Source of the DNA: Aspidiotus rigidus
Taxonomy: Eukaryota > Arthropoda > Insecta > Hemiptera > Diaspididae
Assembly (NCBI GenBank): GCA_035079385.1
Contig: JAVHKY010000054.1
Span: 10,517,501-10,581,500 of the forward strand
Reading direction: 5' to 3'
DNA length: 64,000 nt
Under the pieces are notes generated by a model. It was not told where the DNA came from, made no database searches, and saw only the letters and a program-made list of their open reading frames with translations. Position 1 is the stretch's first letter; each line of letters opens with the position of its first letter. The position numbers were made by a program, and so were the translations under genes. This document shows, one piece after another, positions 5,101-56,986 of this stretch.

Positions 5101-6854
5101 AACTAATCAGACTTTCATGAGTGAAATTTCGAAGAGGAAAGAGGAAAATGAAATTTGCAACGACAAAAAAAAATAAAAATGTGTGGTATTGAACTCTAAT
5201 CTGCATGAGTGCTCGACGAACAAAAATAAGAAATAAATAAAAATAATACGAACAAGATATAAAAAAAAATAAAATGAAACGGTAAGTAAAAAAATTGAGA
5301 AAAAGATTAAATTAGGAGATGACATGACGATTTTTTGAAGTTGACTGGTTTGGAACCCTGGTGGCAGATGGAGACGAACTGATGGTTGACTGGTGGACAG
5401 CATCGCGAAAAGGTGGAAGTGTTCGCCGAAAAAGTGCGCATTCCTTGGCCGGATAAAACACATGACCCGCGCGTGATGGAAAATTTTAACACGTGGACAT
5501 GACGGTCGAGAGAGATGGGGCCCACTAATGGGGCTTAGGCGGCCATCAGGCCAGCGTTACACATAGCACCAAACCAATTAACAATTTGAGGTAACAATGC
5601 AATACGAGCACCGAGTAACGTGTGGGATCACACACCCGAATTTAAATTCTTTTTTAATAATAAAAAAAAACTCGAGTTTTTCGAAACTTTCGAATTATCG
5701 GCGAGGTGGGTTCGGTAGCCGACGCCTTTTTCGAACAACGACGCGCAATAGAGCGAATGTTTCAATTTCAAGATGCGAACTAGCGCGAGTGCTCTTGAAT
5801 AAGATAAGATTTAAACTTGGAAATAATGTGATTAGATCTTAGAAGAATTCGGCGCACGAAGTCGACATCGATCCGGTAGCATAGATTCGAACATCAGTGA
5901 TTTCGCGCCGCGTTCCACATAGCCGCCTTAAAATCTTTTAGAAGTCTGACCCGCCGAAACTTCCCCCGACTTTCTCATTTCCGAAAGACTCCAGCGAATC
6001 CAAAAACTGGAATCTTACGTAATTGACCGCCTACTCGTTCTTACCCTTCCAATTGGTCCAGAGAGCCGTGATGTCAACCGTCTCTTAGTACCCTCGAGGA
6101 TATGTCGAGATGGACGGCTCGACGACACCGCACAAGTAGTGAACTGTTCATCTCCCCGAGAACCCCGACTAATCCTATGATTTACGAGGGCTTGCATCGC
6201 CTCCGTCGACATTAACTAAGATCGGCTAACACACGTGCAAAGTCAGGACACGCTGCCCATCAAGAGGACCCCCAGAGTCAGGATGAGCTTGCGCGTATTG
6301 ACACTGCACCCTCTAACCTATAAAAGAGAAAGAACGAGAGAAACAAAGAAAGAGCTGGGATCGAAACTACAAATTTCCGTGTCTGCAGCCTTTTTTTTAC
6401 GACTTACATCCGCGGATGACACTGCAGACAAAGACCGAAACATTAAAATTCAAAACTCTTCCTTTCGGTCAATCGAATTTTTTGAAATAACATCTGCGTC
6501 TTCCAAAATCTCCGTCTAAATATGCCAGATGTAGGCTCGCATCACCCCAATGTCTAATTCCTAAAGAAACTGAAACCTCCCGCACAAATTATTTTATTGC
6601 TTTTACGCAGTTTCTCCGAGACATCAGAGTATAGAACAAAGGAGTGTTGCAAGCTCGGCCGAATAAGACACAGGAAGACCGTCGGATGAAAATAGAGGGA
6701 GAGAGAATGGAAGAAGACGAGCGAGACAGCGAGAAAGACCACCAGCGGCCACGCAACGCGCTCGCCACCCGATGAAATATCTTCGAATCTATGCTTAACC
6801 GAAGAAGCGTCAATCTATCTGTGTTTTGAATTTACATATTTTTTGTGACACTAC
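2196..6854. other. Gene-free AT-rich stretch with homopolymer runs
   Basis: No ORF here has recognisable protein content. The stretch is full of A and T runs at 3060-4160. Short direct repeats occur near 4280, 4431 and 4495, where a GGGGGACAACTATCC-like motif recurs. A slightly more GC-balanced part lies at 5820-6310. If the gag-like element starts to the right of 2195, its 5' LTR and leader could lie here, but the partner LTR is outside the window and I could not define it. Confidence 0.35.
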
Positions 6855-8323
6855 AGAGGGACACCCCGATGCGGCCGGTCGTTTCTTTTGTGTCTTCCTC
6901 CACGTGCTTCTTGGCGAAATTTTTGGACCTTTGGTTCAAATCTAGAGTGGAATTTGAGTCATCCTACTCTGTGAAGAATTCGGTCTCTTTGGCTAATAAG
7001 CTTAAGGATGACATTCTTCCGCCTGATTCAACCCTATGCTCCTTTGACGTTGTCGGCTTATTTCCGAGTGTCCCTAGAGCTACTGCCAGGCAACATATGG
7101 GAGACCTTTTGATCCAATCTAGTATCTGTCACGAAGAGTTGGCAGAATTTTTTAATTTACTCAATATTTGTTGGTCTCACAACTTTTGCAAATTTGATGG
7201 CAAACTTTTCGAATTTCCTGAGGAGGTAGGTATTCCTATTGGCTCTTCTCTGGGTTCCCTCATTTCGGAGGTTTTCATGTCTAAATTTGAGCTTGATCTC
7301 TTTTCCTCTGGTCAGGGGTTTTTGGGTCATATATATTATTGGCACAGGTACGTCGACGATGTGTTGTGTTTGTGGACCGGTCAACGGGATCTCCTTTTGG
7401 AGTTTCTCAGGTATCTTAACAGTTTATACCCATCCATCAAATTCACGTTGGAAGTAGGCGGTTCATCTATAAATTTTTTGGAACTTACTATCTCTAATAG
7501 AGAATGTGCCCACGAATTCGCCATATATAGAAAATATACCTCGACCGATATTACTGTCCACGGCAGATCTTTCTGCCCTGTTGCTCGCAAATATGCCGGT
7601 TTTAATAGTTATATCCACCGGTTGACGAGTATTCCATTAGGTCAGCTCGCTTTTCAACAGGAGCTTTCGACTATAAAGCACTTGGCCAGAGTGAACGAGA
7701 TCAGCTTGGATATTGACTTGATGGTCCATAGGAAATTGACTCGGAAATGCCTTGATTTAACTACCTCCCTCCCCCGTAATCCAGCGTCAGATAGTAGGAA
7801 ACGTTGGATTAGGCTTCCGTTTTTGGGGAAATTTTCTTCCCAATTAGGTCGTTTCCTCCGCCCATTTGGGTTTCGGCCAGTGTTTTACAATCTTAACACT
7901 GTAAAAAGCTTGTTCGTTAAGTTAAAGGACCCCATCCCACTGGTCGAAAGAAGCGGGGTTTACAAAATTGAGTGTAATGATTGTAATGGAATCTATATAG
8001 GCGAGACTGGACGTCAGCTCAAAATTAGAATAGATGAGCATAGGAAGGCGTGGGAAAAGAAGAAATTGGGTGATTCGGTATTTGCGGACCATCTTATTAC
8101 CACTGGCCATGGTTTCATAGAGGGATCTGAGTCCCTCCTCCACAGAGAGTCCTCGGCTTTCAAACGTACCGCGCTAGAACACATCGAAATTATTCGCCAT
8201 CTGAATAACGATAACCTAAATGTGCTCAACAGGTACATACCTGATGAGGGTTTGATTGAATTAGTTTACGAGTATGATTCACATTGTGATGACTCGCTAG
8301 TTCAGTCATGTCCTCCTCGGTAG
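6845..8323 (+). CDS. Penelope-like reverse transcriptase / GIY-YIG endonuclease (N-terminally truncated)
   Basis: The open frame encodes most of the RT and all of the C-terminal endonuclease. RT motif A is CSFDVVGLFPSVP, motif B is IGSSLGSLISEVFM, and the catalytic motif C is YWHRYVDDVLC, with the two Asp residues kept. After a linker comes the GIY-YIG domain (SGVYKIECNDCNGIYIGET, then GRQLKIRIDEHRKAW), including the paired Cys just before the GIY strand that is common in this class. Penelope-like elements use the endonuclease to nick DNA and the RT to copy their RNA at the nick. The N-terminal DKG-containing region is absent and the first few codons derive from flanking DNA, so this frame is not functional alone. 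The RT-to-stop part has no frameshift. Confidence 0.88.
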   Translation: MTLQRDTPMRPVVSFVSSSTCFLAKFLDLWFKSRVEFESSYSVKNSVSLANKLKDDILPPDSTLCSFDVVGLFPSVPRATARQHMGDLLIQSSICHEELAEFFNLLNICWSHNFCKFDGKLFEFPEEVGIPIGSSLGSLISEVFMSKFELDLFSSGQGFLGHIYYWHRYVDDVLCLWTGQRDLLLEFLRYLNSLYPSIKFTLEVGGSSINFLELTISNRECAHEFAIYRKYTSTDITVHGRSFCPVARKYAGFNSYIHRLTSIPLGQLAFQQELSTIKHLARVNEISLDIDLMVHRKLTRKCLDLTTSLPRNPASDSRKRWIRLPFLGKFSSQLGRFLRPFGFRPVFYNLNTVKSLFVKLKDPIPLVERSGVYKIECNDCNGIYIGETGRQLKIRIDEHRKAWEKKKLGDSVFADHLITTGHGFIEGSESLLHRESSAFKRTALEHIEIIRHLNNDNLNVLNRYIPDEGLIELVYEYDSHCDDSLVQSCPPR

Positions 8324-22590: not shown

Positions 22591-23360
22591 AGTCCCTCTT
22601 CCTATCATATGTGGCTGGATAGTCGAAATTTTTCCAAGTCCCCTAGACTTGAATTGTCTCATACCTTTCCAATACAACAGCGAGATCGCTCGTTCGCCCC
22701 ACGAAAGTTGATACCTCAAAATATAGAACACCCACAATTACCTCAAAATACTTCTCATACAAGACTTATACGACGCCAAGATAGGTAAAGGGGTAAACGA
22801 ATAATATCTCACGAACACTTGACCTAGTAGAAGAATTAATAATAAATAAATAAATGAATGAATGAATGAATAACTAAATAAATAAATAAATAATAATAAA
22901 TAATTAAATAATAAAATAATTAAATAAATAAATAAATAAATAAATAATTAAATAAATAAATAATTAAATAATTAAATAATTAAATAAATGAATAATTAAA
23001 TAATTAAATAATTAAATAAATAAAGGCTGAATAGTCGAAATTTTTCCAAGTCCCCTAGACTTGAATTGTCTCATACCATTCCAATACAATAGTGAGACAG
23101 GGGGCGAACGAGCGGAGCGAGTTCGCGCTACCTCATATTTCTCAAAAAAGACTTGAATTTTCTCATACCATTCCAATACAACAGCGAGATCGCTCGTTCG
23201 CCCCACCGAAAGTTGATACCTCAAAATATAGAACACCCACAATTACCTCAAAATATTTCTCATACAAGACTTATACGATGCCAAGATAGGTAAAGGGGTA
23301 AACGAATAATATCTCACGAACACTTGACCTAGTATAAGAATTAATAATAAATAAATAAAT

Positions 23361-24130
23361 GACGGCTTCCTTAACGAAGTTAAACGAGGAACGCAGGGAA
23401 CCTGTTTTATGATTCGAATGAGATTTGGTATTGAAAATTCAAGGAAGCCTAGATTTGGAGAAAGGTAGTAAAAAGAAGGCCTAGACCAACTCCAAATTTT
23501 TCTAAGTCCTCCTCCTATCATATATGGCTCGAGAGTCGAAATTTTTTCTAAGTCCCCCTTCTATCATATATAGCTCGAAAGTCGAAATTTTTCTAAGTCC
23601 TTCTCCTATCATATATGGCTCGAGAGTCGAAATTTTTCTAAGTCCCCCTTCTATCATATATGGCTCGAGAGTCGAAATTTTTTCTAAGTCCCCCTTCTAT
23701 CATATATAGCTCGAAAGTCGAAATTTTTCTAAGTCCTTCTCCTATCATATATGGCTCGAGAGTCGAAATTTTTCTAAGTCCCCCTTCTATCATATATGGC
23801 TCGAGAGTCGAAATTCTTCTAAGTCCCCCTCGTATCATATATAGCTCGAGAGTCGAAATTTTTCTAAGTCCTTCTCCTATCATATATGGCTCGAGAGTCG
23901 AAATTTTTCTAAGTCTTCCTCCTATCATATATAGCTCGAGAGTCGAAATTTTTCTAAGTCCCCCTTCTATCATATATAGCTCGAAAGTCGAAATTTTTCT
24001 AAGTCCTTCTCCTATCATATATGGCTCGAGGGTCGAAATTTTTCCAAGTTTTTCGCTGGACGGCGGACGGCGGACGGCGCACGGCGCACGGCAGATTTCT
24101 CAAATAGCCCCCCATAAAACAGGTTCCCTG
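23361..24130 (+). mobile_element. CAGGGAACCTG-family MITE, copy P2, with expanded minisatellite
   Basis: The ends match P1 (GACGGCTTCCTTAACGAAG at the left, CAGGTTCCCTG then TTAA at the right). It is longer than P1 because a 45-bp internal unit is amplified. Confidence 0.75.
23505..24045. repeat. 45-bp minisatellite (about 11-12 units)
   Basis: The unit reads roughly CTCGAGAGTCGAAATTTTTC followed by TAAGTCCCCCTTCTATCATA and TATGG. Two alternating variants (GGCTCGAGAG and AGCTCGAAAG; CCCTTCT and CTTCTCC) show higher-order duplication. Because 45 is divisible by three, both strands give long open frames (126 and 159 codons) that are artefacts. P1 has two units only. Confidence 0.9.
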
Positions 24131-24582
24131 TTAAGATAAATAAATAAATAAATAATATTAAATAATTAAATAATTAAATAATTGAATAATTAAATAATTA
24201 AATAAATAAAGGCTGGATAGTCGAAATTTTTCCAAGTCCCCTAGATTTGAATTGTCACATACTATTCCAATACAACAGCGAGACAGGGGGCGAACGAGCG
24301 GAGCGAGTTCGCGCTACCTCGTATTTCTCATAGAAGACTTATAGGACGCCAAGATAGGTAAAGGGGTAAACGAATAATATCTCACGAACACTTGACCTAG
24401 TAGAAGCCTAGACTGAACTATTTCAAGATGACTGATAAAATATAAAAGACATGGAACATGATTTTCATTTATTTGGCTATGCCAGAAAATGTTTTTAGAT
24501 TTCGAATTTTCTCATTGGGGACAGTAATTATTTTGACGGACATTTGAAACATTTTCCGACCAAGGCCATTCCCCCCCCCCTT

Positions 24583-31297: not shown

Positions 31298-33372
31298 ATC
31301 TTCCGGAATGTACGAATTGAGTACAGTGATACCGTCAGTGTTGAGATGACGAATTATCTCTATATTCTCGAGGGCGATGCGCTTACGGTAGGAGCTTTTC
31401 GGATCCCTCGCGGAAGCTGTGGCCACTGTTTATTAAGTGATCGGCGAAAGCTGACTCCCCCAAGTGTCCCTTCTTCCAAGACTTCAGGTGCTCAGCTGCT
31501 CGAACTTTCATTTGGCGGCTGGTCTCACCAATATAAAAACCTCCACAATCCTCACACTCCAACTTATACACACCACTCCTCTCATCAACAGGTATGGGGT
31601 CCTTCAGTCTCACAAACAACCTCTTGACTGTGGTAGGGTTGTAAAACGCGGGTCTGAAGCCAAACGGGCGAAGGGCCCGACCCAAATGCTGGGAGAACTT
31701 CCCCAAGAAAGGGAGACTGATCCAACGCAAACAGCGATCACGGATCGTGTCTCGGGGGAGGGAGGTGGTGGAATCAAGAAGGCTCCTCGTAACTTTCCTC
31801 CGAACCATCACGTCAACATCGACATTGACCCCATTCACTCTGGCCAGGTGTTTTATAGTGATTAACTCTTTCTTGAAGGCAGACTGACTCAAAGGAATAC
31901 GAGTCAGTCTGTGAACTAGGCTATGAAAAGCAGCCATCTTGTGAGCAACAGGACCGAACGAACCACCGTGGACTAAAACATCGGTCGTAGTATCTTTCCT
32001 GTAAATTCCAAACTTATGGATACCGTCTATTATAGAGATCGATAAATCCAAAAAGTTAATGGAAAATACCCCTATTTCCAACGTAAATTTGATGGAAGGG
32101 TACCAGGAATTGAGATACCTCAGAAACTCACCAAGGAGATCTGGGTGACCAGTCCAGGTACATAGAACGTCATCAACGTACCTGTGCCAATAATGAATAT
32201 GATTAAGTAACACCTGGTTCGAGGAAAAGAGGTCAAGTTCAAACTTAGACATGAAGATTTCGGATATGAGAGAGCCTAGTGGTGATCCAATGGGGATCCC
32301 TACTTCGTCAGGGAACTCGAAAAATTTCCCTTCAAATTTACAATAGTTAGGGGACCAGCAAGTATTAAGAAGATCGAAGAATTCGTGAAGCTCATTATGA
32401 GGAATGTTGGCTTTGACGAGTAGCTCACCCATACGCTGGATAGTAGCAGCCTTAGGAATATTCGGGAACAAACCAACAACATCAAACGAGCAGATGGTCG
32501 TTCCCGGGGGAAGGCTTACATCCTTGAGGACGTCAGTTAAAGAGGCCGAATTCAAGACCGAATGAGGGGATTCAAAATCAATACGATTTTTGAACCAACG
32601 GTCAAGGAATTTAGCAAGGAGGTAGGTAGGAGAGGAGACGAAAGAAACAACGGGTCTCATCGGGGTATTGTTCTTATGCACTTTAGGCAGCCCGTACAAG
32701 AGGCGGGGTGTGGGGTCAGGAACAAGGAGGGCTTTTTTCAAAGCAGGAGTTTTTGATAACAGCCTCACTCCTGTTGATGACACACCTAACTTCTTTGACG
32801 TGCTTGGGAAAGCTGAAATCCTCACTCTCTTTAGCACCACACTGCCGTAGGACTTCATGGACCTTAGAAGAATAGGCCGATCTCTCCATCACTACAACAG
32901 CGTTGCCCTTGTCAGCCTTAGTGACGATCAAATCTCCCGCTTTCATCTTCCTCCTTAGACCCTGAATCACTCCTCCCAATTTATTACTCATGCGAGGGGG
33001 GGGGGGGGGGTTATTACGGACTAATTCGGCACAGACTTTCTGGGTATTAAAACCAGGACCAATTTTAACCGCAAGATCCGCAACAACATTCGCCAAGGTT
33101 TCATCATTCTTGAGGGGAGGCATACTGAACTTCAAACCTTTCTCAAGGAGGGATGTTTCGTCACTATTGAACACTACCTGACTATTATTTATGAGGGGAG
33201 GATGGAATTTATGAACGACAACACCATCACTCACCCTCTCCTCAACCACCTCCTCATTAACCGTCATTAGGGAGGACAGCTTCTTATTTTTCCTCTCCTT
33301 CAACTTCGCCTCAAACTTCCGACACTTTTCAACCAGTTCGATCAGGCCTGATCGAACTGGTTTATGACTCAC
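31241..33372 (-). pseudogene. Penelope-like RT / GIY-YIG protein, two frame breaks
   Basis: The nearly full-length protein starts near 33372 and is encoded in three frames. The first (33372-32716) has the N-terminal region with IVTKADKGNAVVVM. The second (to 31383) has RT motifs CSFDVVGLFPNIP, IGSPLGSLISEIFM and the catalytic YVDD (YWHRYVDDVLCTW), then SGVYKLECEDCGGFYIGET of the GIY-YIG nuclease. The third (31426-31241) has the C-terminal tail ALENIEIIRHLN. The first break is an extra base in a five-base run at 32750-32754; the second is a short out-of-frame deletion near 31400. A 15-base G run (32996-33010) encodes Pro residues in a variable loop. It is dead as a source of protein. Confidence 0.85.
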
Positions 33373-37860: not shown

Positions 37861-38459
37861 AGAGTTCGTGTTATAGTCACTCCCTTGTAGACTTTGCTAC
37901 TCGCAGGCAGAATGTGCAGTTATCTTATACAAATATGTCGAACTAGAACTCTTAATTATGGAACTAAGGCCTATGCGAATCTCAATTAGACTCGAGCATT
38001 GTATCAACGGTCGAATGGACGCAATTTCGACGTCCATTGTCAGCCTGCGTTATAAAACTCGTGTCAGAAGTTTACTTATTCAAAGAGGTATCAAATTATG
38101 CGCTTGCCACGTCGACAGTATTTACTTTCATTTGAAAATAAGGTCTTGGGAGTTTGCACTAAATCTGTCGTAGCACGAAAACGCAAAACGTTAGATGTAT
38201 AGTTGAAATGTACGAATTTTGTATCTCAATTTTATCTTTAATTTGAGCCATATCCGAAGTTTCTACGACTTTTTTGAGGCGAGTTATGGACCAAAATGTG
38301 CCGAAAATTCACCAAATCGCCAGGGTTCCCAAAATAGGGCTTGAAAATTAATTAATTTACAGTATTGTGCTGAATTTCTAAAATTTTAATAATCAAATTA
38401 GTGTTTCCTAAGTGAATTTGGACGGGGAAAACGGAGAAAAATAGTAACAAAATCCTAAG

Positions 38460-39990
38460 AAACAACAAAATAGGTTAATAGGCCCAAAAAGGGTCAAAAT
38501 TCCCCCGAGTTGGAAAATCGTTCAAATTTTTGAATTGTATTTCGATTTTTAGGCAGAATTTCGCGCTGAGTTCGAAAAAATGTTTAAAAATTTTTTCGAA
38601 ACACCAACATGGGTTAATGGGCCCAAAAAAGGTCAAAATTTCTCAAAGTTGGAAAATTGTTCAAACTTTCAAATTTTAATTCGATTTTCAAGTGGAATTT
38701 TGCGCCGAGTCCGAAAAAAATGCTTAAACAGTTCTTTGAAGCACGAAAAAAGGGTTAATGGGCCCCAAAAAGGGCCAAAATTTCCCCAAATTGGAAAATC
38801 GTTCAAATTTCTTAATTGTATTTCGATTTTGAAGTAGAATTTCGCGCTGAGTTCGAAAAAAAAGTTTGAAAATTCTCTCGAAGCACCAAAATGGGCCCAA
38901 AAAAGGTCAAAATTTCTCAAAGTTGGAAAATTGTTCAAACTTTCAAATTTTAATTCGATTTTCAAGTGGAATTTTGCGCCGAGTCCGAAAAAAATGCTTA
39001 AACAGTTCTTTGAAGCACGAAAAAAGGGTTAATGGGCCCCAAAAAGGGCCAAAATTTCCCCAAATTGGAAAATCGTTCAAATTTCTTAATTGTATTTCGA
39101 TTTTGAAGTAGAATTTTGCGCTGAGTTCGAAAAAAAAGTTTGAAAATTCTCTCGAAGCACCAAAATGGGCCCAAAAAAGGTCAACATTTCTCAAAGTTTG
39201 AAAATTGTTCAAACTTTCAAATTTTAATTCGATTTTCAAGTAGAATTTTGCGCCGAGTCCGAAATAAATGCTTAAACAGTTCTTTGAAGCACGAACAAAG
39301 GGTTAATGGGCCCCAAAAAGGGCCAAAATTTCCCCAAATTGGAAAATCGTTCAAATCTTTTAATTGTATTTCGATTTTTAAGTAGAATTTCGCGCTGAGT
39401 TCGAAAAAAAAGTTTGAAAATTCTCTCGAAGCACCAAAATGGGCCCAAAAAAGGTCAACATTTCTCAAAGTTGGAAAATTGTTCAAACTTTCAAATTTTA
39501 ATTCGATTTTCAAGTGGAATTTTGCGCCGAGTCCGAAAAAAAATACTTAAACAGTTCTTCGATGCACGAAAAAAGGGTTAATGGGCCCAAAGAGGGCCAA
39601 AATTCCCCCAAATTGGAAAATCGTTCAAATTTTTTAATTGTACATATTTCGATTTTTAAGTAGAATTTTGCGCTAAGTTCGAAAAAAATGTTTAAAAATT
39701 TTTTCGAAGCACCAACATGGGTTAATGGCCCCAAAAAAGGTCAAAATTTATCAAAGTTGGAAAATTGTTCAAACTTTCAAATTTTTATTCGATTTTCAAT
39801 CGCGCCGAGACCGAAAAAAATGCTTAAAAAATACTTCGGAGCACCAAAATGGGATAATGGGCTTAAAGAGAATCAAAATTCCTTCAAGATGAAAAATTGC
39901 GTAATCTTCAAAAGTTCTTTTCAATTCCGAAGTAAAATTTACCGCCGAGTCCGAGAAAAATACTTAAATGACCCTAGATGATCTCCAAAA
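38460..39990 (+). repeat. FB-2 left tandem array (274-bp dimer of ~137-bp units)
   Basis: Units alternate between two variants, one with AAGTGGAATTTTGCGCCGAG and one with GTAGAATTTCGCGCTGAG. The pair repeats every 274 bp, seen for example in identical 98-residue shadow frames beginning 274 bp apart. Common parts are GGGTTAATGGGCCC and CAAATTGGAAAATCGTTC. Confidence 0.9.
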
Positions 39991-40800
39991 TGAAGAATCA
40001 AAAAAAAATTTTCCATTCTGCAGTAAAGTTGTTGATTCAGGGGATGGAAGGAATGTCGAAAAGTTCGTTTGCCGTTGAGTGCTCGCGGAGCGTCGGGTGA
40101 CAGATCCGAAAGAGGAAATTGCAGAAATTCTCCTCACTTGGGGATTGGAGGGAGGCGACACATTGATCTTCCCTTGACGGTTCGCAGTGAGAGGTCGACT
40201 AGGGCTCTGCGTATGATCAAAGCGGGAAAAAGTGGGAAAACTCTCGTTGTTTCAGTCGAAGAACGCAAAGTTGGTCTTCTGTTGCGTGCTTGCGATGAGA
40301 GATCAACTGACGCTCCACCTATGAACGAAGCGGGCCAAAGTGTAAAAACTCCTTTATTCAGGCAATGGGAGAATACCGCAAATTCGGTCTTGCTCGTGAA
40401 GAGCGATCAGCTACAACTTAGTCTTCGATGGAGGCAGACGAAAGCCCGGAATTTCCCGGGGTTTCAACGGAGGAGGGAATGATACCGTCAAGCTCAACCT
40501 TTGTCATGAGCTCGCGGTGAGAGAACGATCAAAACCCCGTGTTTGAAAGAGGCAGGCGAATGATCCCTGGGTTCAACATAGATCGACTGAGGCCCCGTGT
40601 ATGATCAAGAAAAACTCGTGTTGTTTCTTGACAAGAAGAGAATAATACCGCCGACTTCGTTTTCCATTACATGCTTGCGGTAAAAGATCGACTGAGGCCC
40701 CATGTATGATCGAGGCGGGTACTTCCGCAAAAACTCCTGTTGTTTCTTGCCAAGGAGAGTTCAACAGTTTTTTTCACCTCAGCACACAATTTTACCCTAG
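39991..40800 (+). repeat. FB-2 centre, ~110-bp degenerate tandem repeat
   Basis: Repeated text includes GATCGACTGAGGCCC, TGTATGATCAAG/GAGGCGGG and AAAACTCCTGTTGTTTC. One frame (40069-40482 plus, 137 codons, Arg-rich) is open but spans the repeats and resembles no protein I know, so I do not call it a gene. Confidence 0.6.
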
Positions 40801-41230
40801 AATCAAGAAAAACTTTGAAGGTTAGGCGATTTTTTTCGTTTTGAAAAAATGTTTACCCTTTTTGGTCCCATTAACCCATTTTGGTGCTCCGCAGAATTTC
40901 TTAACAATTTTATTCAGATTTAGCGCTAAATTTTGTCTCAGAATCGAGAAAAACTTTGAAGGTTGGGCGATTTTATCATTGTGGGGAAATTTTGACCCTT
41001 TTTTGCCCATAAACCTACTTTGGTGCTTCGCAGAATTTTTTAACAATTTTATTCAGATTCAACGCTAAATTTTATCTTAGAATCGAGAAAAACTTTGAAG
41101 ATTAGGCGGTTTTATCATTTTTGTGAAACTTCGACCTTCTTTTGGCCCATTAACCCATTTTTGTGCTTCGCAGAATTTTTTACCCATCTTATTCGGATTC
41201 AGCGCTAAATTTTACCTCATTACGCGATTC
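40801..41230 (-). repeat. FB-2 right tandem array, inverted
   Basis: Three units of the left-array repeat in opposite orientation, with CCCATTAACCCATTTTGGTG and AATTTTGTCTCAGAATCGAG. Confidence 0.8.
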
Positions 41231-44147: not shown

Positions 44148-46293
44148 TAACGACGACATACTCAACGATTGAAACGTACGGAGTAATTTGAATAGAGCCA
44201 AAGAAATGAAAATACACCGGAGCGCTTTCGGGTTACCCCCTCTTAATAATGCTAACACTTTCGCCAATGTTGTTGCGGACCTCGAAATAAAAATTGGGCC
44301 TGGGGTTAATACTCAGAAAGCGTGTGCCGCCTTTGTCCGCGATACCCCCTTCCCTCGTATAAATGATTTGGCTTTTGAGGTGATTAAGTGGATCAAGAGG
44401 AAGGTCAGGGAGGAGGGCTTAACCATTACTAAGGCTGATAAAGGGAATGCCATAGTCGTTATGGATAAGTCCTCTTACGTCTCCAAGGTCTATGACGTTC
44501 TCGACCAGTGTGGCGCCAAGGAAAATGCGGATTTCAATTTTCCAAATCACGTCAAAGAAGTTAGGCGTGTTATAAACACTTGTGAATTCATTATTAAGAC
44601 CCCTAAGCTTAAAAGAATGCTTCTTGAGCCCAATCCAGTGCCGCCCCTCTTGTACGGGCTACCTAAGGTTCATAAGAGGGACACCCCGATGCGGCCGGTC
44701 ATTTCTTTCGTGTCTTCCCCCACGTACTTCTTGGCGAAATTTTTGGACCGTTGGTTCAAATCTAGAGTGGAATTTGAGTCATCCTACTCTGTGAAGAATT
44801 CGTTCTCTTTGGCTAATAAGCTTAAGGATGACATTCTTCCGCCTGATTCAACCCTATGCTCCTTTGACGTTGTCGGCTTATTTCCGAGTATCCCTAGAGC
44901 TACTGCCATGCAACATATGGGAGACCTTTTGATCCAATCTAATATTTGTCACGAAGAGTTGACAGAATTTTTTAATTTACTCAATATTTGTTGGTCTCCC
45001 AACTTTTGCAAATTTGAAGGCAAATTTTTCGAATTTACTCAGGAGGTAGGTATCCCTATTGGCTCTCCTCTGGGTTCCCTCATTTCGGAGGTTTTCATGT
45101 CTAAATTTGAGCTTGATCTCTTTTCCTCTGGTCAGGGGTTTTTGGGTCATATATATTATTGGCACAGGTACGTCGACGATGTGTTGTGTTTGTGGACCGG
45201 TCAACGGGATCTCCTTTTGGAGTTTCTCAGGTATCTTAACAGTTTATACCCATCCATCAAATTCACTTGGAAGTAGGCGGTTCATCTATAAATTTTTTGG
45301 ACCTTACTATCTCTAATAGAGAAGGTGCCCACGAATTCGCCATGTATAGAAAAGATACCTCGACCGATATTACTGTCCACGGCAGATCTTTCTGCCCTGT
45401 TGCTCACAAATATGCCGGTTTTAATAGTTATATTCACCGGTTGACGAGTATCCCATTAGGTCAGCTCGCTTTTCAACAGGAGCTTTCGACTATAAAGCAC
45501 TTGGCCAGAGTGAACGAGATCAGCTTGGATATTGACTTGATGGTCCATAGGAAATTGACTCGGAAATGCCTTGATTCCACTACCTCCCTCCCCCGTAATC
45601 CAGCGTCAGATAGTAGGAAACGTTGGATTAGGCTTCCGTTTTTGGGGAAATTTTCTTCCCAATTAGGTCGTGTCCTCCGCCCATTTGGGTTTCGGCCAGT
45701 GTTTTACAATCTGAACACTGTAAAAAGTTTGTTCGTTAAGTTAAAGGACCCCATCCCACTGGTCGAAAGAAGCGGGGTTTACAAAATTGAGTGTAATGAT
45801 TGTAATGGAATTTATATAGGCGAGACTGGACGTCAGCTCAAAATTAGAATAGATAAGCATAGGAAGGCGTGGGAAAAGAAGAAATTGGGTGATTCGGCAT
45901 TTGCGGACCATCTTATCACCACTGGCCGTGGTTTCATAGAGTGATCTGAGTCCCTCCTCCATAGAGAGTCCTCGGCTTTCAAACGTACCGCGCTAGAACA
46001 CATCGAAATTATTCGCCATCTGAATAACGATAACCTAATTGTGCTCAACAGGTACATACCTGATGAGGGTTTGATTGAATTAGTTTACGAGTATGATTCA
46101 CATTGTGATGACTCGCTAGTTCAGTCATGTCCTCCTCGGTAGTTCTTGTTGCCGGCCGGAGTTGGTTCAGTTGCTTTCACGTCCCCGTTGACAATGGTTT
46201 TTTAATCGAAAGCGCTCCGGTGTATTTTCATTTCTGTGGTTCTATTCAAATTACTCCGTACGTTTTAATGGTTGAGTATGTCGTCGTTGGATT
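44148..46293 (+). mobile_element. Penelope-like element, copy 3, between ~85-bp inverted arms
   Basis: 44148-44231 is the reverse complement of 46207-46291, sharing ACGACGACATACTCAAC, ACGTACGGAGTAATTTGAAT and GAAAATACACCGGAGCGC. Directly after the left arm the sequence enters the coding region about 100 codons into the ORF, so the 5' part is missing. It is nearly identical to copy 1 where they overlap. Confidence 0.85.
44188..46142 (+). pseudogene. Penelope-like RT / GIY-YIG protein, frameshift plus stop
   Basis: The conserved protein begins near 44236 (LPPLNNANTFANVVADLEIK) and includes the DKG region (TITKADKGNAIVVM), the RT with CSFDVVGLFPSIP, IGSPLGSLISEVFM and YWHRYVDDVLC, and the GIY-YIG nuclease (SGVYKIECNDCNGIYIGET). 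A one-base deletion near 45267 (ATTCACTTGG against ATTCACGTTGG in copy 1) shifts the frame. A G-to-T change at 45942 turns a Gly codon into TGA inside the nuclease tail, where copy 1 reads through. Otherwise it is almost identical to copy 1. The first six codons lie in the inverted arm. Not functional. Confidence 0.88.
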
Positions 46294-46860: not shown

Positions 46861-47533
46861 TTTGTTTCAGTTGTGATTGTGAATAGACCAATTCTTCGAA
46901 TCATTCGTAAAATACGTACGCGTTATTTTTCATACATACCTGTGACGAGAATTTGGCATATCTCGTCACGAACCTTCAGTATCACAAAACGTGACTGAAG
47001 ATGAACATAACGTAAGTAAAAACAAACAAGCGATGATTCGGTGTTTAAAAGAAAGACGCGTACGAACTCAATAATTAAGCTCTGGGAAAACATGGCAAGG
47101 GTCGAAGTCGCAGCTACTGAATTTCATGCTGATCACCTCAGCTCGACTGAGCTCGTTCATGAGTAGATATATGTGTACTCACATGTGATCGTCATTATAC
47201 GGTCTTACATATATGTAGTTGTCATTCTTACGTCGGTGTGTACATAGCCCACGTCGTAATACCTAATCATAATTACAAATGTCCAAAAAAATTTTCATTT
47301 GACTACAGAATTAACAAAAGAGCTAAAAATCCCCCTTTCGTAAATGGTTCATAATTTTTCGTGAATATATTTCTTTGTTATATCCGCATTGAGAAACAGT
47401 TTCTGTCGTTGTAAAACCACTGGCGGCAGTGATTAACCTCTTTAATAACATTTGATCACATTTGCTAAAGAAGTTATTGAACTTTTATCTTTGACAGTCG
47501 TGCTCAGTGTTCAATATTTTGCTGTTTTTCAAA
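46861..47533. other. 5' flank of the arginine decarboxylase gene
   Basis: No gene visible. A pyrimidine-rich acceptor-like sequence (TTTTATCTTTGACAG, about 47482-47496) lies just upstream of the coding start, so a short non-coding leader exon further up is possible. I saw no TATA box that I would defend. Confidence 0.35.
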
Positions 47534-49750
47534 ATGAATAACATACTAATAGTCGAAAGCTTGGAATTCGAATTCAGTCGAGTTGTGGTGAGAGACATTA
47601 AAAAATTGTTGGGATCTTTTTATAACGTTATCACCTGCAGTACCCTGTCAGAAGCGGAGCTGATTGCTAAGTCGAACATTCCCTTGTGTTCATTACTGTT
47701 TTCGAAATCTTTGGGTCATGCACCCAGCGATTCATCGGATATACCTCCAACGCCGGATTTGTTCGAGTCCAACGTAGTAGATATTCTACATGCCCGACAG
47801 CCAGGAGTGCCGACATTTTATCTCAATGAGGCCACAGAAGTCGACGACGTGGCCACTACACTCTTCACGAAAATCAAAGAAATTCTCTTCGTAAGTCAGG
47901 ACAACGCGGAATTCATCCATGGAAGAATCGTTCGTTCTGCTCAAAGGTATTTGGAAAATTTGTTACCAACTTTCACGGACGATCTGCGCAAATTCGCGGA
48001 TACGTACGAGTATTCTTGGACTATACCAGGCCACCAAGGGGTTGGTATGAAGAAAAGTCCCATCGGTAAAGCTTTTCTCGACCTTGTCGGGGAAGGTGTC
48101 TTCAAATTGGATTTGAGTAGTTCAAGATCCGATTTGGGATCTCTGTTGGGCCGTTCTGGGCCGTTTTTAGAATCGGAAAAAGAGATTGCCAAAATTTTCG
48201 GAGCAGAGTTATCGTACACTGGAGTTGTAGGCGGTTCTGGATCGAATCGAACGATTATGCAGTATTGCATCAGAGACAAGGACGTTGTTGTTGTCGATCG
48301 CAATTGTCACAAATCCATCGCAAACGGTCTCATATTGACGGGAGCAATAGCCGAGTTTGTGAAACCGAGAAGGAACGAGTACGGCATAATCGGTCCTTTC
48401 AAAATCTCTGAATTAAACGAAATTATGCAGGATCGGATGATAAGATACTTCGTCATGACGAATTGCACCTTCGATGGGCTTTGTTACTTTGTTGATGAAG
48501 CTAAAGATGCTTTATCAAAGGTCAAGTACGTCCATTATGACGAGGCGTGGTTTGCTTATGCGAAATTTCACCCCCTATACGAGGGCACGTATGCTATGCA
48601 AGGGGATTATAAAAATTATACGGGCGAATCAACAGTATTTGCGACTCATTCTTCACACAAGATGCTGAATGCTTTCGGACAAGGGTCATTCATCCATGTG
48701 AGGAGCGGTCGGGGTGATGATGCCAAAGTAATCCCAGATGATTTCAATCAGTCCTATATGATGCACACGACTACGTCTCCTTCTTATATTCTTGCAGCTT
48801 CGAACGATGTCTCTGCAAGCATGATGGAAGGTGATATGGGCAAGTCGCTGGTGCAGGAGTCTCTTATTGAAGCTATCCATTTCAGGAAAACGCTTTCGAA
48901 ACTTTACTCCGACCACACATCAAAAAAGGATCCACCTGGTTGGTTCTTCAAACCGTGGAATGCCGAGAAAATAGGTGACAAATCATTCCACGAGATGAAA
49001 ACAAAATGTCTAATCGACCAGAAGAATTGGATTTTGAGCCCGAAAGATCTATGGCATGGGTTTGACGAAATGGAGGAATCGTGGTGCATGTTGGATCCGC
49101 TCAAAGTAACCATAATAACGAAGTTTGAAAATGTTCAAATTCCAGCTCCTCTGGTTTGTGTTTGGCTGGCTAGCAAAGGTGTTACTATTTGTCGGTTCAC
49201 GGAATGTACAATCATGTTCTTGTTTTCGATGGGAGTGACGAAAGGAAAATGGATCACACTAGTGCAGTATCTATCGGAGTTCAAAGAGTTCTACGACAAG
49301 GATCGTTGCTTACAAGAAATATCACCCGAACTCGTAACAAAATATCCGCAATATGCCAACGAAGGACTGAAAAGTTTAGGAGATAGGATGATCAAATTCT
49401 TGGAAATTAACGATTTGACCAGTCTTTCGAATGGAGCAGCCTCATATTTGCCGGCGAAGAGCGAGATGTCTTGTCGGGAAGCTTTCCAGCAAATACCCCG
49501 TTCGACCGAATTCCTCCCACTCGAACAGCTTTACAATCGTGTTTCAGCTTCGTTCATCATTCCATTTCCACCTGGAATTCCCATAATAATTTCTGGCGAA
49601 AGATTCGGAGAGAAGGACAAGTGTCCGATCGTAAAGTACTTGCTGGGACTCGAACTTTGGGATCAAACATTCCCTGGATTTGGTCACGAGACGACCGGAG
49701 TGAAGAAGGACGAGAACTCGGGGAAGTTTCTGGTTTGTGTCACGCAATGA
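47534..49750 (+). CDS. Bacterial-type (AdiA-family) arginine decarboxylase, intronless
   Basis: This 738-codon frame is a complete group III (fold type I) PLP decarboxylase and resembles E. coli AdiA (about 755 residues) more than the lysine or ornithine enzymes. AdiA converts arginine to agmatine plus CO2 and consumes a proton. Residues 1-125 are the wing domain, starting NNILIVES like AdiA. The core has PGHQGVGMKKSPIGKAF, the GSGSNRTIMQY phosphate loop, DRNCHKS with the His stacking on PLP (residue 259), HYDEAWFAYAKFHPLY with the Asp binding the PLP nitrogen (336), and ATHSSHKMLNAF with the Schiff-base Lys (376). The C-terminus has MFLFSMGVTKGKW and FPGFGHETTG. I chose the ATG at 47534, although the frame extends 9 codons upstream. 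No signal peptide, so probably cytosolic. Two loops are shorter than I recall in AdiA. No introns, no frame damage. Confidence 0.93.
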   Translation: MNNILIVESLEFEFSRVVVRDIKKLLGSFYNVITCSTLSEAELIAKSNIPLCSLLFSKSLGHAPSDSSDIPPTPDLFESNVVDILHARQPGVPTFYLNEATEVDDVATTLFTKIKEILFVSQDNAEFIHGRIVRSAQRYLENLLPTFTDDLRKFADTYEYSWTIPGHQGVGMKKSPIGKAFLDLVGEGVFKLDLSSSRSDLGSLLGRSGPFLESEKEIAKIFGAELSYTGVVGGSGSNRTIMQYCIRDKDVVVVDRNCHKSIANGLILTGAIAEFVKPRRNEYGIIGPFKISELNEIMQDRMIRYFVMTNCTFDGLCYFVDEAKDALSKVKYVHYDEAWFAYAKFHPLYEGTYAMQGDYKNYTGESTVFATHSSHKMLNAFGQGSFIHVRSGRGDDAKVIPDDFNQSYMMHTTTSPSYILAASNDVSASMMEGDMGKSLVQESLIEAIHFRKTLSKLYSDHTSKKDPPGWFFKPWNAEKIGDKSFHEMKTKCLIDQKNWILSPKDLWHGFDEMEESWCMLDPLKVTIITKFENVQIPAPLVCVWLASKGVTICRFTECTIMFLFSMGVTKGKWITLVQYLSEFKEFYDKDRCLQEISPELVTKYPQYANEGLKSLGDRMIKFLEINDLTSLSNGAASYLPAKSEMSCREAFQQIPRSTEFLPLEQLYNRVSASFIIPFPPGIPIIISGERFGEKDKCPIVKYLLGLELWDQTFPGFGHETTGVKKDENSGKFLVCVTQ

Positions 49751-49752
49751 AG

Positions 49753-49758
49753 AATAAA
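49753..49758 (+). terminator. Polyadenylation signal AATAAA
   Basis: The canonical hexamer lies two bases after the stop of the decarboxylase gene, a eukaryotic feature showing adaptation to nuclear expression. The 3' UTR would be very short. Confidence 0.6.
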
Positions 49759-50488
49759 TGCAGTAAATGCCCGGTTTTCTTATTAAACATTCTAGCAGAT
49801 TTAATGTTTGTACGTAGGTAATTATGTTTTAAACGTTCTGTAAGAAAGTGCAATATTGCTTGCCTAGGTACGCTCTATTAGTATTCTTTTTGAAAGTACG
49901 TGGCCCAAATTGAAAGAAATATTTTAGATCTGATTGAGGCTCAGAACCTTCGACGAACTTCAGAGGGAAGGGTAAGGTTGCCCATCTAGGAAACGTTTTA
50001 TCAATAGAGCTCTCAATTCTTCGAGATATTTGCATCAACTTTAGGCTGAAGATTGGATTCACAAAAAATTTAAATCAGATTTCACGAGGGACATTTTTCG
50101 TTTGAAAATCTATTTCATCATCAGAGCCCAATTTTTCGAAATATTTGCCTAGGATTGACTTCTAAGGGTCAAAACGTGCCGCAAAAAAAATTCAGTATAC
50201 GACTTGGGGAGCGGGACTTTCGGGACACCGAACCCAAAATGTTTGCAAAATCATTTTCGTGAGTCTCCATCGCATACACACTAAGGCTTCAAAAGACCGA
50301 GTCATGTTTTAACATGACATCAAATAAGTTCTCTTTCGTAGAGGGTGGAATACATTATACGAACCAAAAACTAATTTTTACGCGCCTGTAGTTTTCCCCC
50401 CTCTATTTTTCTTTGTAACATTACGATGATAATTTTCAAGAAGAAAACCAGGAAAGTTTGCTACCAGTTTTGATCATTATCGGATGAA
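49759..50488. other. 3' flank of the decarboxylase gene
   Basis: No gene or clear repeat visible. Confidence 0.4.
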
Positions 50489-51245
50489 ATGAGCTTAGCC
50501 TGTTCTCTGGGCTGGTTTTGCACATCCTGCAAGTCGTCGTCAATGTCGTCTACTACGTCTAATACTCCACCAGCATTGAGGCAAGTCTACCCAAGATACA
50601 TTGGTGAGCATTTTAATCCTAGGAAGAAAAAAAAACTATTTTCAGCGAAAATTCAAACAATAGGTCTTATTTGAGAAGTATAGTGTTGACCGTAAAACAC
50701 TATAAGTAAAGAATAACAGATGTGACTTTGGCTCTTCCGTTGATGAAAAAACTGACCAATGTTTTGAACATTAGCTCTTCATCATCGAGGTCGGATGACT
50801 AAAGTGCCAAGTTACCCTTTTATCTATGGAATATCTATTGTTCATTTGCTTTTCGGCAGCTGCAAGCATTTCTACATCCCTGGGCGCACCCACTAGAAAT
50901 GAGTTGTAGGAGGTGGGTCTGACGCGGCGTTGGGGCTTCGGGAATTGTTATAGGCTCCAACATCGCATCGATTCGCTTCCATCCCCATTCTAATGCATAT
51001 TTTTTAAGACAAAGCCACAATTGTACCTGGTGGTCCACTCTAGCTGTATAAATGAAACCGTGCAGCGTCTTCAGTGGATGGTAGAGAGGCCAAGTCTACT
51101 TTCCGGCGGATATTTTTCGCCAAAGCTTCAAAGTGACATTTGTTCAATGGATTGTCTTTTGTACTATCGAAGATCAGAGAGTATTGCGGCTCCTGTAGAG
51201 TCTTTAACACGACGCGACTTTAATTATTTTTATTTCAACACCTAG
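50489..51245 (-). pseudogene. Remnant of a repeat-associated Cys-rich protein
   Basis: The minus strand gives DHQVQLWLCLKKYALEWGWK, then SGCAQGCRNACSCRKANEQ, followed after stops by a short acidic tail (DDIDDDLQDV). A WGW segment, a Leu-rich stretch and a C-x3-C-x3-C-x-CRK cluster are typical of a protein type often seen in insect repeats, usually with more Cys following. It is broken by several stops. Confidence 0.4.
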
Positions 51246-51399
51246 ATGAATCATGACTATAAGAAAAATATTTATTTAATTTCCATCTTTTCAATATTTC
51301 GATCACTAGTAAAAATAAAAGTCCTTACGATCTGTAGTAATGATGCAAGACTTTCATAAATCAGCACCAAAACTATCTGAATATGAGAAAAATATAGCA

Positions 51400-52512
51400 T
51401 ACCCTTATGTTTTCAACGTCGAAAGCCCTTTTTTGCGGACTAGTTGCTCCATCCTGAAAGTTGAATAGCTCGTTTGATAGGAAATTCAACGAGGAACAAC
51501 TTTTATTTCAAACATTTTTTAATAAAATAATTTCAATTCTGGGAGGTACACGGAAAAACTGATTTTAGTCCACATCACCGACAGGAAAGTTCATCCCGAT
51601 TTTTTGAGTTCACCGACACCGACGACGAAATTCACCATTTTCAATCAGCCTTTTGATTTTCATTTGCCGCTTTGATATACCAAATTTTATTTATAAAATT
51701 ATTTAGATAAAATAATGATTTAATAAAGAAAATTTATTTAATTAAAATATTGATATTTATAAATCAAATTAATTAAATTAATAAATTATATTTTATTATT
51801 TATAATTATAATTTTTAATTTATTAAATCAATTTATGGATAATTTTTATTTCAATAAATGATTATTTAAAAATTATATTAGGTAATTCAAATTATTTTAT
51901 TTTATTTCTTTTTTTTTTTTTTAATTAAATTTCATTAAAGTATAAAAATAAATAATACTTGAAAATAATGAAAAATATTATAAAATTTAATTTTATTACA
52001 TAAAATATCGAAAATAAAATTATTAAATTAATTTTTTGTTATTATTAAACTTAAATTAAACTGATTAATTAACTTCATTAATAAAAATATAATCGAATTT
52101 TGTCGGTGAACTTTCATCACGGTGAACTTACAATGTGGTGTACCACTACTTCTATCAGGTGAATTATCTGTAGGTGAACCTTAATCGGTGAATTTTTTTA
52201 GGTGATAAATCTTTCGGTGAAATACCCTAATGCCCTTTTGAACGGCCTTTGCAGGATTTTCCGGGGTACTATATGACCTAGGCTGAACATTGAATACGTT
52301 ATTTGGTAGGAAATTTAACGAGGAACAATTTTTGTTTGAAACATTTTTTAATAAAATTTCAATTTTGCGCAATATAGGCGAATAACTAATTTTTTGGGGG
52401 TTCGAACCACCATAAAAAAACAAGCTCCACGGGGAAAACGCGGGATTTTTAGTGTGTTTTTCAGAAGCACGTTCTGAACCATTTCCTGCAAAGTAACGTT
52501 TGCTCCAGCAAA
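51400..52512 (-). repeat. D repeat family, copy 2 (inverted, interrupted)
   Basis: Reversed copy of the blocks at 26806-27590, including GCGGGATTTTTAGTGTG and CGTTTGCTCCAGCAAA at its right end. It is interrupted by a 670-bp AT-rich insertion at 51563-52232. Its right end sits inside the copia remnant. Confidence 0.75.
51563..52232. mobile_element. AT-rich insertion with TTCACCGA-type ends
   Basis: It splits D copy 2, and copy 1 shows the uninterrupted order. TTCACCGA/TCGGTGAA motifs recur near both ends in inverted orientation, and 51690-52100 is nearly all A and T. No coding content. The exact class is unknown. Confidence 0.5.
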
Positions 52513-53090
52513 TTGTTTTACTTGTCAGAATTATTTCCGAGAAGCACGGTGTCATCAACGTAAAATCCCAGAAGAACGACTGCCGATTGCCCATTTTGCG
52601 TACATTTCCACTCGAAATTAGAAGGTTTAAATACGGAGGATTTGAATCCCATACCTTCAAGGGTATTGCGGAAACCGAAACGCTTATACCAATGCTCAAG
52701 TCTAACTTTTAGACCGTACAGTGATTGTAGGATTTTCGTTAGGTATGTAAGTAGATCGAAGTCCATCTTCGACGCCATAACTTTGTGGCAAAAGCATGTT
52801 AACAGGCACATCAAGGACCCCGTTAAGAGAGGCTACTTTTCCATCGAGCTGCTGCGTATCTTAACTTCTCCTGAACTGCCATACAGAGTACGGCACGGAT
52901 ATTATTAACATTGCCCACAGGTGCCCAAGTGTCAGTAGTATGATAAGGATTTAGGTCTTTGAATTGACGAACTACGACCCTAGATTGATTCCGAGTATCT
53001 CCGAGTTCGACTTCATTGTCATCGCTTTTAGTTCCTCAGTGATCGCTTGTTTCCAAACTTGGATTGACGTGACTTGCAAGCTTCCGTATG
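52513..53090 (-). pseudogene. Ty1/copia pol remnant
   Basis: Reading the minus strand gives VVRQFKDLNPYHTTDTWAPV then GNVNNIRAVL, matching the start of copia-type RT, and after stops LQSLYGLKVRLEHWYKRFGF and LLGFYVDDTVLLGNNSD with the catalytic YVDD. There are several in-frame stops and a large loss between blocks. D copy 2 is inserted at its downstream end. Confidence 0.8.
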
Positions 53091-53830
53091 AGAAAACGGG
53101 AAGAATTGCCTAACATATGTTTTTTTTTTCTCACGAAGACTCTGATTCTCTCTTTAGAGCTCAATCTTCTGAGACTCATAATTTCCACATCTCTTACTCT
53201 TCAAGAATCTTGACGACTGTCACCGGAGGGTCTGGGTACTTGTTCCCATCCCCCCTAGCGGCGATATTATCATATGAGACATGAAACGTGATCTAAAACT
53301 CTTTCTTCCAAAACTAAGGATAGGTCATTTTGAAGAGAAGGATTTATGGAATGATTTTCATGATCTTAGATTTAAGACCTGAAAACATTAGTCCCTCTCC
53401 GGAAAATCTCTTTCCTTAGGATTCTCATATCGGAGGGGGGGGAGGGGGAGGGAAGTTCGGTAAATATATGAGGTCAATATCATTCCCCCCTTCTCAGCCT
53501 GGTATAAGCCTGCGATGCCACAGAAAACACGAACGTTATTTTGTTCACATCATCAACAACTAAAATCCAGAATATAATTTATATAGATACGTACGTATCT
53601 TAATGATGCGAGTCGTAAAGATCATATCGTCTCCTTCATTAATACGAGTAGGAAGCGATCGAAAAATACATTAATTCTCTTTTCGATTTGTGATCAACTA
53701 TATAAAGTGTTCGTCCCTACTTTCTTTGTGCGAGGTCATATAAATATGGATTATGATTCGCAAATAGGAAATGCGAATGTTCGGACCAGGAAATTCACCT
53801 GTGAAAAAATGGGCGGACAGAAAGAAAAAA
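53091..53830. other. Intergenic, no recognised gene
   Basis: No recognised ORF. A purine-rich G tract lies near 53436-53455. Confidence 0.4.
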
Positions 53831-54253
53831 GACGCCTTCCTTAACGAAGTTGAACGAGGAACGCAGGGAACCTGTTTCTATGAGTCAACTTGGTTTTGGT
53901 ATTGAGAATTCAAGCAAGCCTAGACCTAGTTTAAAGCTAGTATGAAGAAGGCCTAGACCTACTATGAACCTAGTACAAAATAGGACGTCATCAGTGACCT
54001 GGACCTACTTTAGGGACTTCGAAATATATATGTGAACTGCGATGAGAAAAGGATGCTCATTGCCCATTGGCGCAAAAACACCATTTCTCTCTGATTGGAC
54101 ATCTAATCAGAGAGAAATGGTGTTCCTGTCCGGGGCTATGAGCAACCTTTTCTCATCACAGGTCACATATCTCGAGAGTTGAAATTTTTTCAAGTTTTTC
54201 GTCGGATGGCGTACGGCGCACGTCAAAATAAGAAACCTCCATCAGGTTCTCTG
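53831..54253 (+). mobile_element. CAGGGAACCTG-family MITE, copy P3 (diverged)
   Basis: Begins GACGCCTTCCTTAACGAAG, with CGCAGGGAACCTGTTTCTAT following, and ends CAGGTTCTCTG. A long hairpin is inserted in or evolved within it. Confidence 0.65.
54029..54170. repeat. Long hairpin inside P3 (arms ~65 bp)
   Basis: Left arm 54029-54095 and right arm 54105-54170 pair through TATATGTGA...CTGATGAGAAAAGG-type text and ACACCATTTCTCTCTGATT, with a short loop and some bulges. It may be a separate foldback MITE. Confidence 0.7.
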
Positions 54254-54309
54254 TTGAAAAGCCAAAAAGTGACCTAGAGAAAAAATTCACTTGAGATATT
54301 AATCAGTAT

Positions 54310-54752
54310 GGAAATTACCTGCGCGAAAAGTACTATCGAGGCTATATCGATAGTTCCGATAGTTTTCTTGAAACTACCGGTACCATCGGTAGTTTGGATG
54401 AAAAATGTCGATTAAAAGAAAAGTACCTACAGTACATGTAGGATAGATACTTTTCTCCTGATCGTTATTTTTTTGAAAAGCATGAAATGCATTTCAGTGT
54501 TTACCACATGATGGACGCGCCTAGAAAAAATCAAAAAAACATGATGTTGTGCTTATTGCGCAACTGGTACCACCTTACTGATCTTACTTCATTGAACTAA
54601 TGAACTGGCGCACATCTTTTCTTAATTTTCACCTGTCATTCCGCACCAATATTTTATGATTTTGATGAGAAAAGGTAAAATTTTCCAACTGTTGTTTTTT
54701 TTAAACAAAACTGTCAATAGTATCGATAATCTACCGATAGTTCCCAACGCTA
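54310..54752 (-). mobile_element. hAT-like repeat R, copy 1 (minus)
   Basis: Inverted relative to 56840-57734, sharing the ends around CGATAGTTCCCAAC and an inner block with GTGCGCCAGTTC and TGACAGGTGAAAATT in reverse. It provides the empty site for the S element nested in the other copy. Left boundary approximate. Confidence 0.6.
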
Positions 54753-56094: not shown

Positions 56095-56986
56095 GTATAT
56101 AGGGCGCGTAAGCGACCGTTTAAGTATCTGATACTATCCCGCAATACGCAAATACGTGATTCTGATTGGTTCGTTGAAGACTTCTGATTGGTCTAGAAAT
56201 GTCTGGTTCATAAAATATTTTTTTCCTATATAAATTAACATTGGAACTATTTTGATTTGCAAATAAATCTAAAACTGTGCATATTTAACGACAAAAAAAT
56301 TATTGGAAGAGAAAGCTAGAACATTGTAGATTATAAATATTACATTTTCATCTCTTAAATATCTTTATTTTCAATTTACTGAATAATTTTTCGAACCAAC
56401 TTTTTTCCTTATGGGAATTTACATGTATTTTGGTTTGTTTACATTTTTCTGTGAACCATGACGCGTATTTGTGAGCTCACAGTATACAGCGTGTGAGCCC
56501 GTCAATTGTCCAATAAAACGGAAGTTGATAAGTTGGTAATATAGAATCGATTACTTTCGATATATCAACACAGTCGAGTTATAGGGACTTCCACTACTTT
56601 GGGATTTATATCTGTAACTTTCATTATACTAGGCCTAAAAACTAAAAAGAGCCTTCATTATATACTTAATCGATTATATTTGCTATATCGATACAGTCGA
56701 TTTGTAAAATCGATTATTTGATGTACGAATATGGCTGATATGTTGTATCAATGTCAATGTATCTTAGCCGAACCTCATTGACATTAGGGGTAAGTAGGTG
56801 TAGTGTGGAACTAAATTTGCTGGTGATGTCATGCACGATCAGTGTTGGGAACTATTGATAGACTATCGATAGTTTTTGGAAAATATTATCGATATTGACG
56901 ATAATTTTGTTTGAAAACAAAAACGGCGATAGTATCGTCGTCGATAGTTTGAAAATTTTTCCTTTTCTTATCAAAATCACGAAATA

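Follow-up and report, generated by a model that had tools for sequence, protein, structure and literature searches.

The window analyzed here, a stretch of 64,000 nucleotides from the scale insect Aspidiotus rigidus (C54:10517501-10581500; contig JAVHKY010000054.1 of assembly GCA_035079385.1), carries at 47534..49750 of its forward strand an intact gene derived from the bacterial arginine decarboxylase AdiA. The explanation we favour, and consider highly likely, is that a bacterial adiA-type gene was gained by the scale insect lineage, duplicated and kept, and that it encodes a pyridoxal 5'-phosphate (PLP) dependent enzyme that makes agmatine. By this scheme, the gene would have come from a bacterium whose group includes the Serratia quinivorans/proteamaculans-type enzymes and would have reached three chromosomal places through at least two duplications; its product would be translated in the insect cytosol and would convert arginine to agmatine and CO2. 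We infer from sequence that the genes are expressed and enzymatically active, that arginine is the substrate and that agmatine is the end product. The copies on contigs C23 and C30 would be expected to make agmatine, and the window copy, an intact and loosened member of the family, may be weak or changing and may have lost or altered its activity.

The window copy consists of one open frame, 738 codons plus stop long, that runs from an ATG to a TGA with no internal stop, and its coding part is without introns. The three domains that make up bacterial Orn/Lys/Arg decarboxylases were all detected in order on the forward strand, each over its Pfam cut-off: the N-terminal wing domain OKR_DC_1_N (47597..47950, residues 22-139, 35.7 bits against a cut-off of 29.3), the PLP-binding major domain OKR_DC_1 (47966..49246, residues 145-571, 383.8 bits) and the C-terminal domain OKR_DC_1_C (49325..49714, residues 598-727, 102 bits). 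The PLP lysine (K386 by Providencia numbering) is retained within the major domain in the motif THSSHKM. In protein searches the window protein matched AdiA proteins at more than 600 bits, which excludes a chance likeness, and the best NCBIfam model was that of arginine decarboxylase (PRK15029, 730.5 bits), followed by models for lysine (454 and 395 bits) and ornithine (280 bits) decarboxylases. The nearest solved structures, both by sequence and by predicted fold, were AdiA of E. coli, Salmonella and Providencia. The predicted model had a mean predicted local distance difference test score (pLDDT) of 83, with values below 50 at residues 62-74, 158-170 and 187-198. Thus, the full-length AdiA-family frame recognized in a preliminary description of this DNA was borne out by domains, fold and reading frame alike.

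The 5' and 3' ends of the frame were compared among copies. The start context CAAAATG (47530..47536, forward strand), which we take to be insect-like, is identical in the C54, C23 and C30 copies. The insect proteins begin where the bacterial enzymes begin and show no extra leader peptide in the alignment, so a cytosolic location is likely. As described previously, an AATAAA closely follows the stop codon of the window copy, beginning at the third base past it; since the homologous site of the C23 copy reads AATAAT, this motif lacks the conservation that would support a poly-A site, and the first AATAAA is found at +140 in the C23 copy and at +41 and +90 in the C30 copy.

A protein search of the genome (441.1 Mb in 102 contigs; four candidates scored) yielded three matches, all intact intronless frames: the window copy and those on C23 and C30, which are 91% and 61% identical to it, respectively. 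The window copy lies about 10.5 Mb into a contig of 19.05 Mb, and the C23 and C30 copies are on contigs of 10.3 and 9.5 Mb. Repeats present in the window recur in the flanks of both of these copies. With three loci on three long contigs and flanks that share repeats, the genes are integrated in the host chromosomes. Host identity was examined with mitochondrial COI. Full-length matches were found on four short contigs (C70, C87, C89 and C97), and after translation with the invertebrate mitochondrial code their four best named matches were the scale insects Didesmococcus, Aclerda, Ceroplastes and Coccus at 69-70%; the next named rows were a Stellaceae metagenome-assembled genome (48%) and then the first aphid (59%), and metagenome rows reached up to 86% over 73% of the query. 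By its COI sequence, the host is placed among scale insects. Both the residence in an arthropod chromosome and the lack of introns that had been proposed for this gene are therefore upheld.

Bacterial relatives were collected in two protein searches, each with about 8000 candidates scored and 120 rows listed. All named rows among those listed were bacterial, with no named eukaryote in either search, and the bacterial relatives listed were at most 48% identical to the insect protein. Clustering of 171 listed proteins and the 79 of 80 loci that gave usable protein left 43 sequences. Three trees were built. The first had 46 rows. The second combined 59 hand-chosen bacterial AdiA rows (52 of the 171 proteins and 7 loci) with the three insect copies, and a more careful tree retained 55 rows after 7 of 62 were left out. 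In all three, the insect copies formed one fully supported clade nested within bacterial AdiA, a placement among AdiA rows in trees without a named lysine decarboxylase row of the E. coli type. The careful tree placed them in a set of 16 rows (100/100) made up of eight named Serratia rows, P0002, P0003, P0011, P0009, P0146 and the three copies; within this clade, the Serratia quinivorans/proteamaculans-type AdiA and P0002, P0003 and P0011 are about 42-48% identical to the insect proteins. Taken together, the searches and trees sustain the bacterial origin suggested in the preliminary description.

Purifying selection on the family was evident from several comparisons. The ratio of nonsynonymous to synonymous change (dN/dS, Nei-Gojobori) was 0.24 for C54-C23 (dS 0.18), 0.31 for C54-C30 (dS 0.85) and 0.28 for C23-C30 (dS 0.90), with all bootstrap intervals below 0.4. 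Between the C54 and C23 copies, the coding part is 93.2% identical and the flanks are 90.3% and 89.0% identical. The three coding gaps (3, 6 and 3 nt) are all multiples of three, and most gaps in the flanks (15, 4, 3, 1 and 2 nt on one side; 10, 1, 15, 41, 10 and 1 nt on the other) are not. In neutral simulations (2000 each), 0.2% of frames were still open at a distance of 0.091 and none at 0.18 or 0.42. These results support a gene family kept under purifying selection after transfer, with selection apparently weaker on the window copy. The earlier argument that an unbroken frame implies selection thus holds for the family and is weaker for the very copy on which it was based.

The differences between C54 and C23 were assigned to lineages with C30 as outgroup. 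By this approach, 37 amino-acid and 25 silent changes fell on the window copy compared to 22 and 36 on the C23 copy (Fisher p 0.019), with 25 differences unassigned, and the end branch in the 46-row tree was 0.078 for C54 versus 0.013 for C23. Conserved columns were drawn from the 59 AdiA rows and 23 wider rows, with L024 left out. Among 222 columns at least 98% conserved in the AdiA rows, 35 were changed in all three copies, 3 in C54 only, 1 in C23 only and 12 in C30 only. The C54-only changes include H207R in the LLDHTG segment (codon 207, 48152..48154, forward strand), where histidine is found in 59 of 59 AdiA rows, in 96% of the 23 wider rows and in the C23 and C30 copies. Of the columns conserved in at least 95% of the AdiA rows and at least 92% of the wider rows, 87 of 98 are retained in the window copy. 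The statement that every PLP-contact motif is present was therefore accurate for the PLP lysine and for most of the conserved core, and inaccurate for His 207 and for one glycine of GHQGG. These data suggest that constraint has loosened on the window copy, a duplicate that is still intact and that can be called a working enzyme less safely than the C23 copy.

The strongest competing explanation is that the window copy is on its way to becoming a pseudogene, a duplicate that has lost function with its frame still open, and that function rests in C23 and C30. The excess of amino-acid changes, the longer end branch and the greater number of altered conserved residues, compared to C23, all speak for it. 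By contrast, 37 changes on about 1707 amino-acid sites versus 25 on about 498 silent sites still leave the C54 lineage below the neutral ratio, the in-frame coding gaps and the rarity of open frames under neutral simulation count against decay, and C30 alone has 12 private conserved-site changes, although over a far longer time. We therefore regard loss of function in progress as a substantial possibility that falls short of an even chance. A second explanation, that the window copy has been neofunctionalised and, with its fold unchanged, acts on a new substrate or serves some non-catalytic role (for instance in oligomers mixed with the other copies), would account for faster protein change in an intact frame and for loss of a near-universal histidine with the PLP lysine retained. 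Relaxed constraint accounts for the same pairwise ratios and parsimony counts, however, and we consider this explanation unlikely. Bacterial contamination or an assembly chimera would suit a protein that is bacterial in kind and whose named relatives are bacterial throughout, but is rejected as very improbable given three diverged loci in contigs of 9.5 to 19 Mb with shared repeats at their flanks and no listed bacterial relative above 48% identity. Just as improbable is an old, vertically inherited eukaryotic gene of the AdiA family, for which no supporting point was found and against which stand the nested position in three trees and the purely bacterial named rows among the 120 listed in each search, with about 8000 candidates scored each time.

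Other observations weigh against the favoured explanation, in which a transferred and duplicated adiA-type gene encodes an agmatine-making enzyme. The PRK15029 score misses the NCBIfam equivalog cut-off of 1167 bits, and for this reason the gene is termed AdiA-derived and not certified AdiA. In all three copies, a loop that bacterial enzymes conserve and one glycine of GHQGG are missing, and R191K, Y313F and S382G are present; activity or substrate could thus have changed. The poorly modeled stretches at residues 158-170 and 187-198 adjoin these changes. The trees also disagree on the closest relative: the insect copies group with a Serratia enzyme in the 46-row tree (98/86) and with P0003 and then P0002 in the two larger trees (74/93 and 74/98). 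Approximately unbiased (AU) tests reject neither a Serratia-type sister (p 0.38) nor a position just outside the 16-row group (p 0.16). Finally, the insect clade sits on a very long stem, with 1.23, 2.36 and 2.52 changes per column in the three trees, which makes the donor unsure and an old transfer or fast early evolution likely. The exact sister is likewise unsure by trees and AU tests. A short Adc hairpin is common to the insect copies, P0002 and P0003, but is not clean evidence of kinship, because among the 59 AdiA rows it is also present in P0012 and because 12 of the 23 wider rows have a segment of 9 residues or fewer; L009 and L012, which are AdiA-type members of those 23, have 14. A plasmid search with P0002 gave no match of at least 60% (403 of 403 records were below 60%).

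Compared to AdiA/Adc of enterobacteria (PDB 2VYC, 5XX1 and 7P9B), the insect proteins share the three-domain chain, the PLP lysine, most conserved core columns and the predicted fold over the whole length. They differ in their animal host, in identity (42-45% in structural alignments), in an Adc hairpin of 8-9 residues versus 14, and in the lost PG..DG loop and missing glycine. Animals are not known to make agmatine with an enzyme of the AdiA family. Bacterial AdiA is a PLP-dependent decamer that converts arginine to agmatine; for the Providencia enzyme, activity could be measured at pH 5 only (PMC8983666). Acid adaptation of the insect proteins as read from charge was considered and dropped, as their isoelectric points (5.7, 5.8 and 6.2) fall within the range of the 11 bacterial rows shown (5.2 to 6.3).

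Partner enzymes were sought by six-frame genome search. No candidate for arginase/agmatinase (PF00491) or agmatine deiminase (PF04371) was detected in this exon-by-exon reading, which short exons could escape, and hence no partner enzyme that would lead from agmatine to polyamines by either family. A search of this kind did detect several partial matches of the ornithine-decarboxylase type (PF02784) on contig C3. If the absence is real, agmatine would not reach putrescine by either known route and would either leave the cell by export or remain as the end product. A further possibility, tentative and somewhat doubtful, is that in this scale insect lineage, without detectable arginase, agmatinase or agmatine deiminase, a bacterial acid-response enzyme in three diverging copies serves as an agmatine-making branch of arginine metabolism. 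Agmatine, its end product, would then act as a signal or a salivary compound or be supplied to symbionts, and the window copy would be becoming a new, possibly non-catalytic subunit.

Animal ornithine decarboxylase is of an unrelated fold, type III; its family (PF02784) resembles the gene described here in polyamine-side chemistry and has its separate relatives on C3. These are seven partial matches within about 19 kb (C3:18334189-18353540, L101-L107), some with internal stops, and represent decayed copies or else exons whose reading ran beyond their limits. An intronless lysA (diaminopimelate decarboxylase; L100:1384-2619, C20:4393246-4393950) was also found, with a TIGR01048 score of 430 bits against a cut-off of 298, and by sequence adds a second gene of bacterial type to this genome. 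lysA is another bacterial gene known from scale insects and whiteflies.

Gene transfer from bacteria to scale insects and whiteflies is well known, and bioB and bioD of these insects are likewise bacterial genes in sternorrhynchan genomes (PMC10158165). Arginine decarboxylase is mentioned in papers on transfer to early-diverging fungi (PMC11291939) and trypanosomatids (PMC3846528). In the open-licence literature searched, an AdiA-type gene was not reported from scale insects or any other animals, and the words "decarboxylase" and "arginine" do not occur in the main text of PMC12510726 and PMC10158165. As far as these searches show, the kind of event, bacterial transfer into sap-feeders, is known, and the gene and its reaction are new to that kind within the open-licence literature. 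The described scale insect and whitefly transfers mostly complete vitamin and amino-acid pathways, as bioB, bioD and lysA do, whereas a decarboxylase that would degrade arginine to agmatine does not fit such pathways in any obvious way. Should C23 and C30 encode working enzymes, they would provide a direct, testable case of an animal adopting an acid-stress enzyme and would show the refitting of a decameric, acid-tuned protein to an insect cell.

Continuous homology between the window and the C23 copy extends over 47260..50042 (forward strand), such that the duplicated unit comprises the frame with 274 nt upstream and 292 nt downstream. Additional stretches at 53332..54529 (forward strand) are colinear with sequence downstream of the C23 copy at 78-87% identity, which may point to a segmental duplication of greater extent in which the interval from 50042 to 53332 finds no match. 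A processed retrocopy as the source of the duplicate is not favoured, given that homology spans both flanks and resumes farther on, in a comparison that took in flank homology and not poly-A tails or target-site repeats. The flanks of the C23 copy both match a repeat block at 38434-41217 of the window (72-87%), and one flank of the C30 copy matches another block at 23354-24137, with long matches at 91-95%.

Elsewhere in the genome, the COI copies on the four short contigs (L087-L094) are spaced by about 13,380 bases and probably represent concatenated mitochondrial genomes, each of about 13.4 kb, a small size for an insect. Large contigs, among them C3, C25 and C4, hold numerous COI fragments; the majority have stops, and they are likely nuclear copies of mitochondrial DNA. 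In a search for endosymbiont 16S with the small-subunit rRNA model, five of 2747 candidates were scored; these lie in tandem on C1:34584-85984 (L095-L099), 12,537 bases apart, and were taken for host rDNA. Within the window, ARAGORN called a tRNA-Asn (anticodon att) at 56862-56949 on the forward strand, which is probably spurious because no Rfam family reached its gathering score there. Three long frames in the window, at 6830-8320 (+), 31386-32888 (-) and 44173-45941 (+), presumably derive from Penelope-type elements. The last is split in two and is much like the 6830-8320 frame in sequence; domain scans of the 6830-8320 and 31386-32888 frames gave weak reverse-transcriptase matches, with a GIY-YIG domain in the former.
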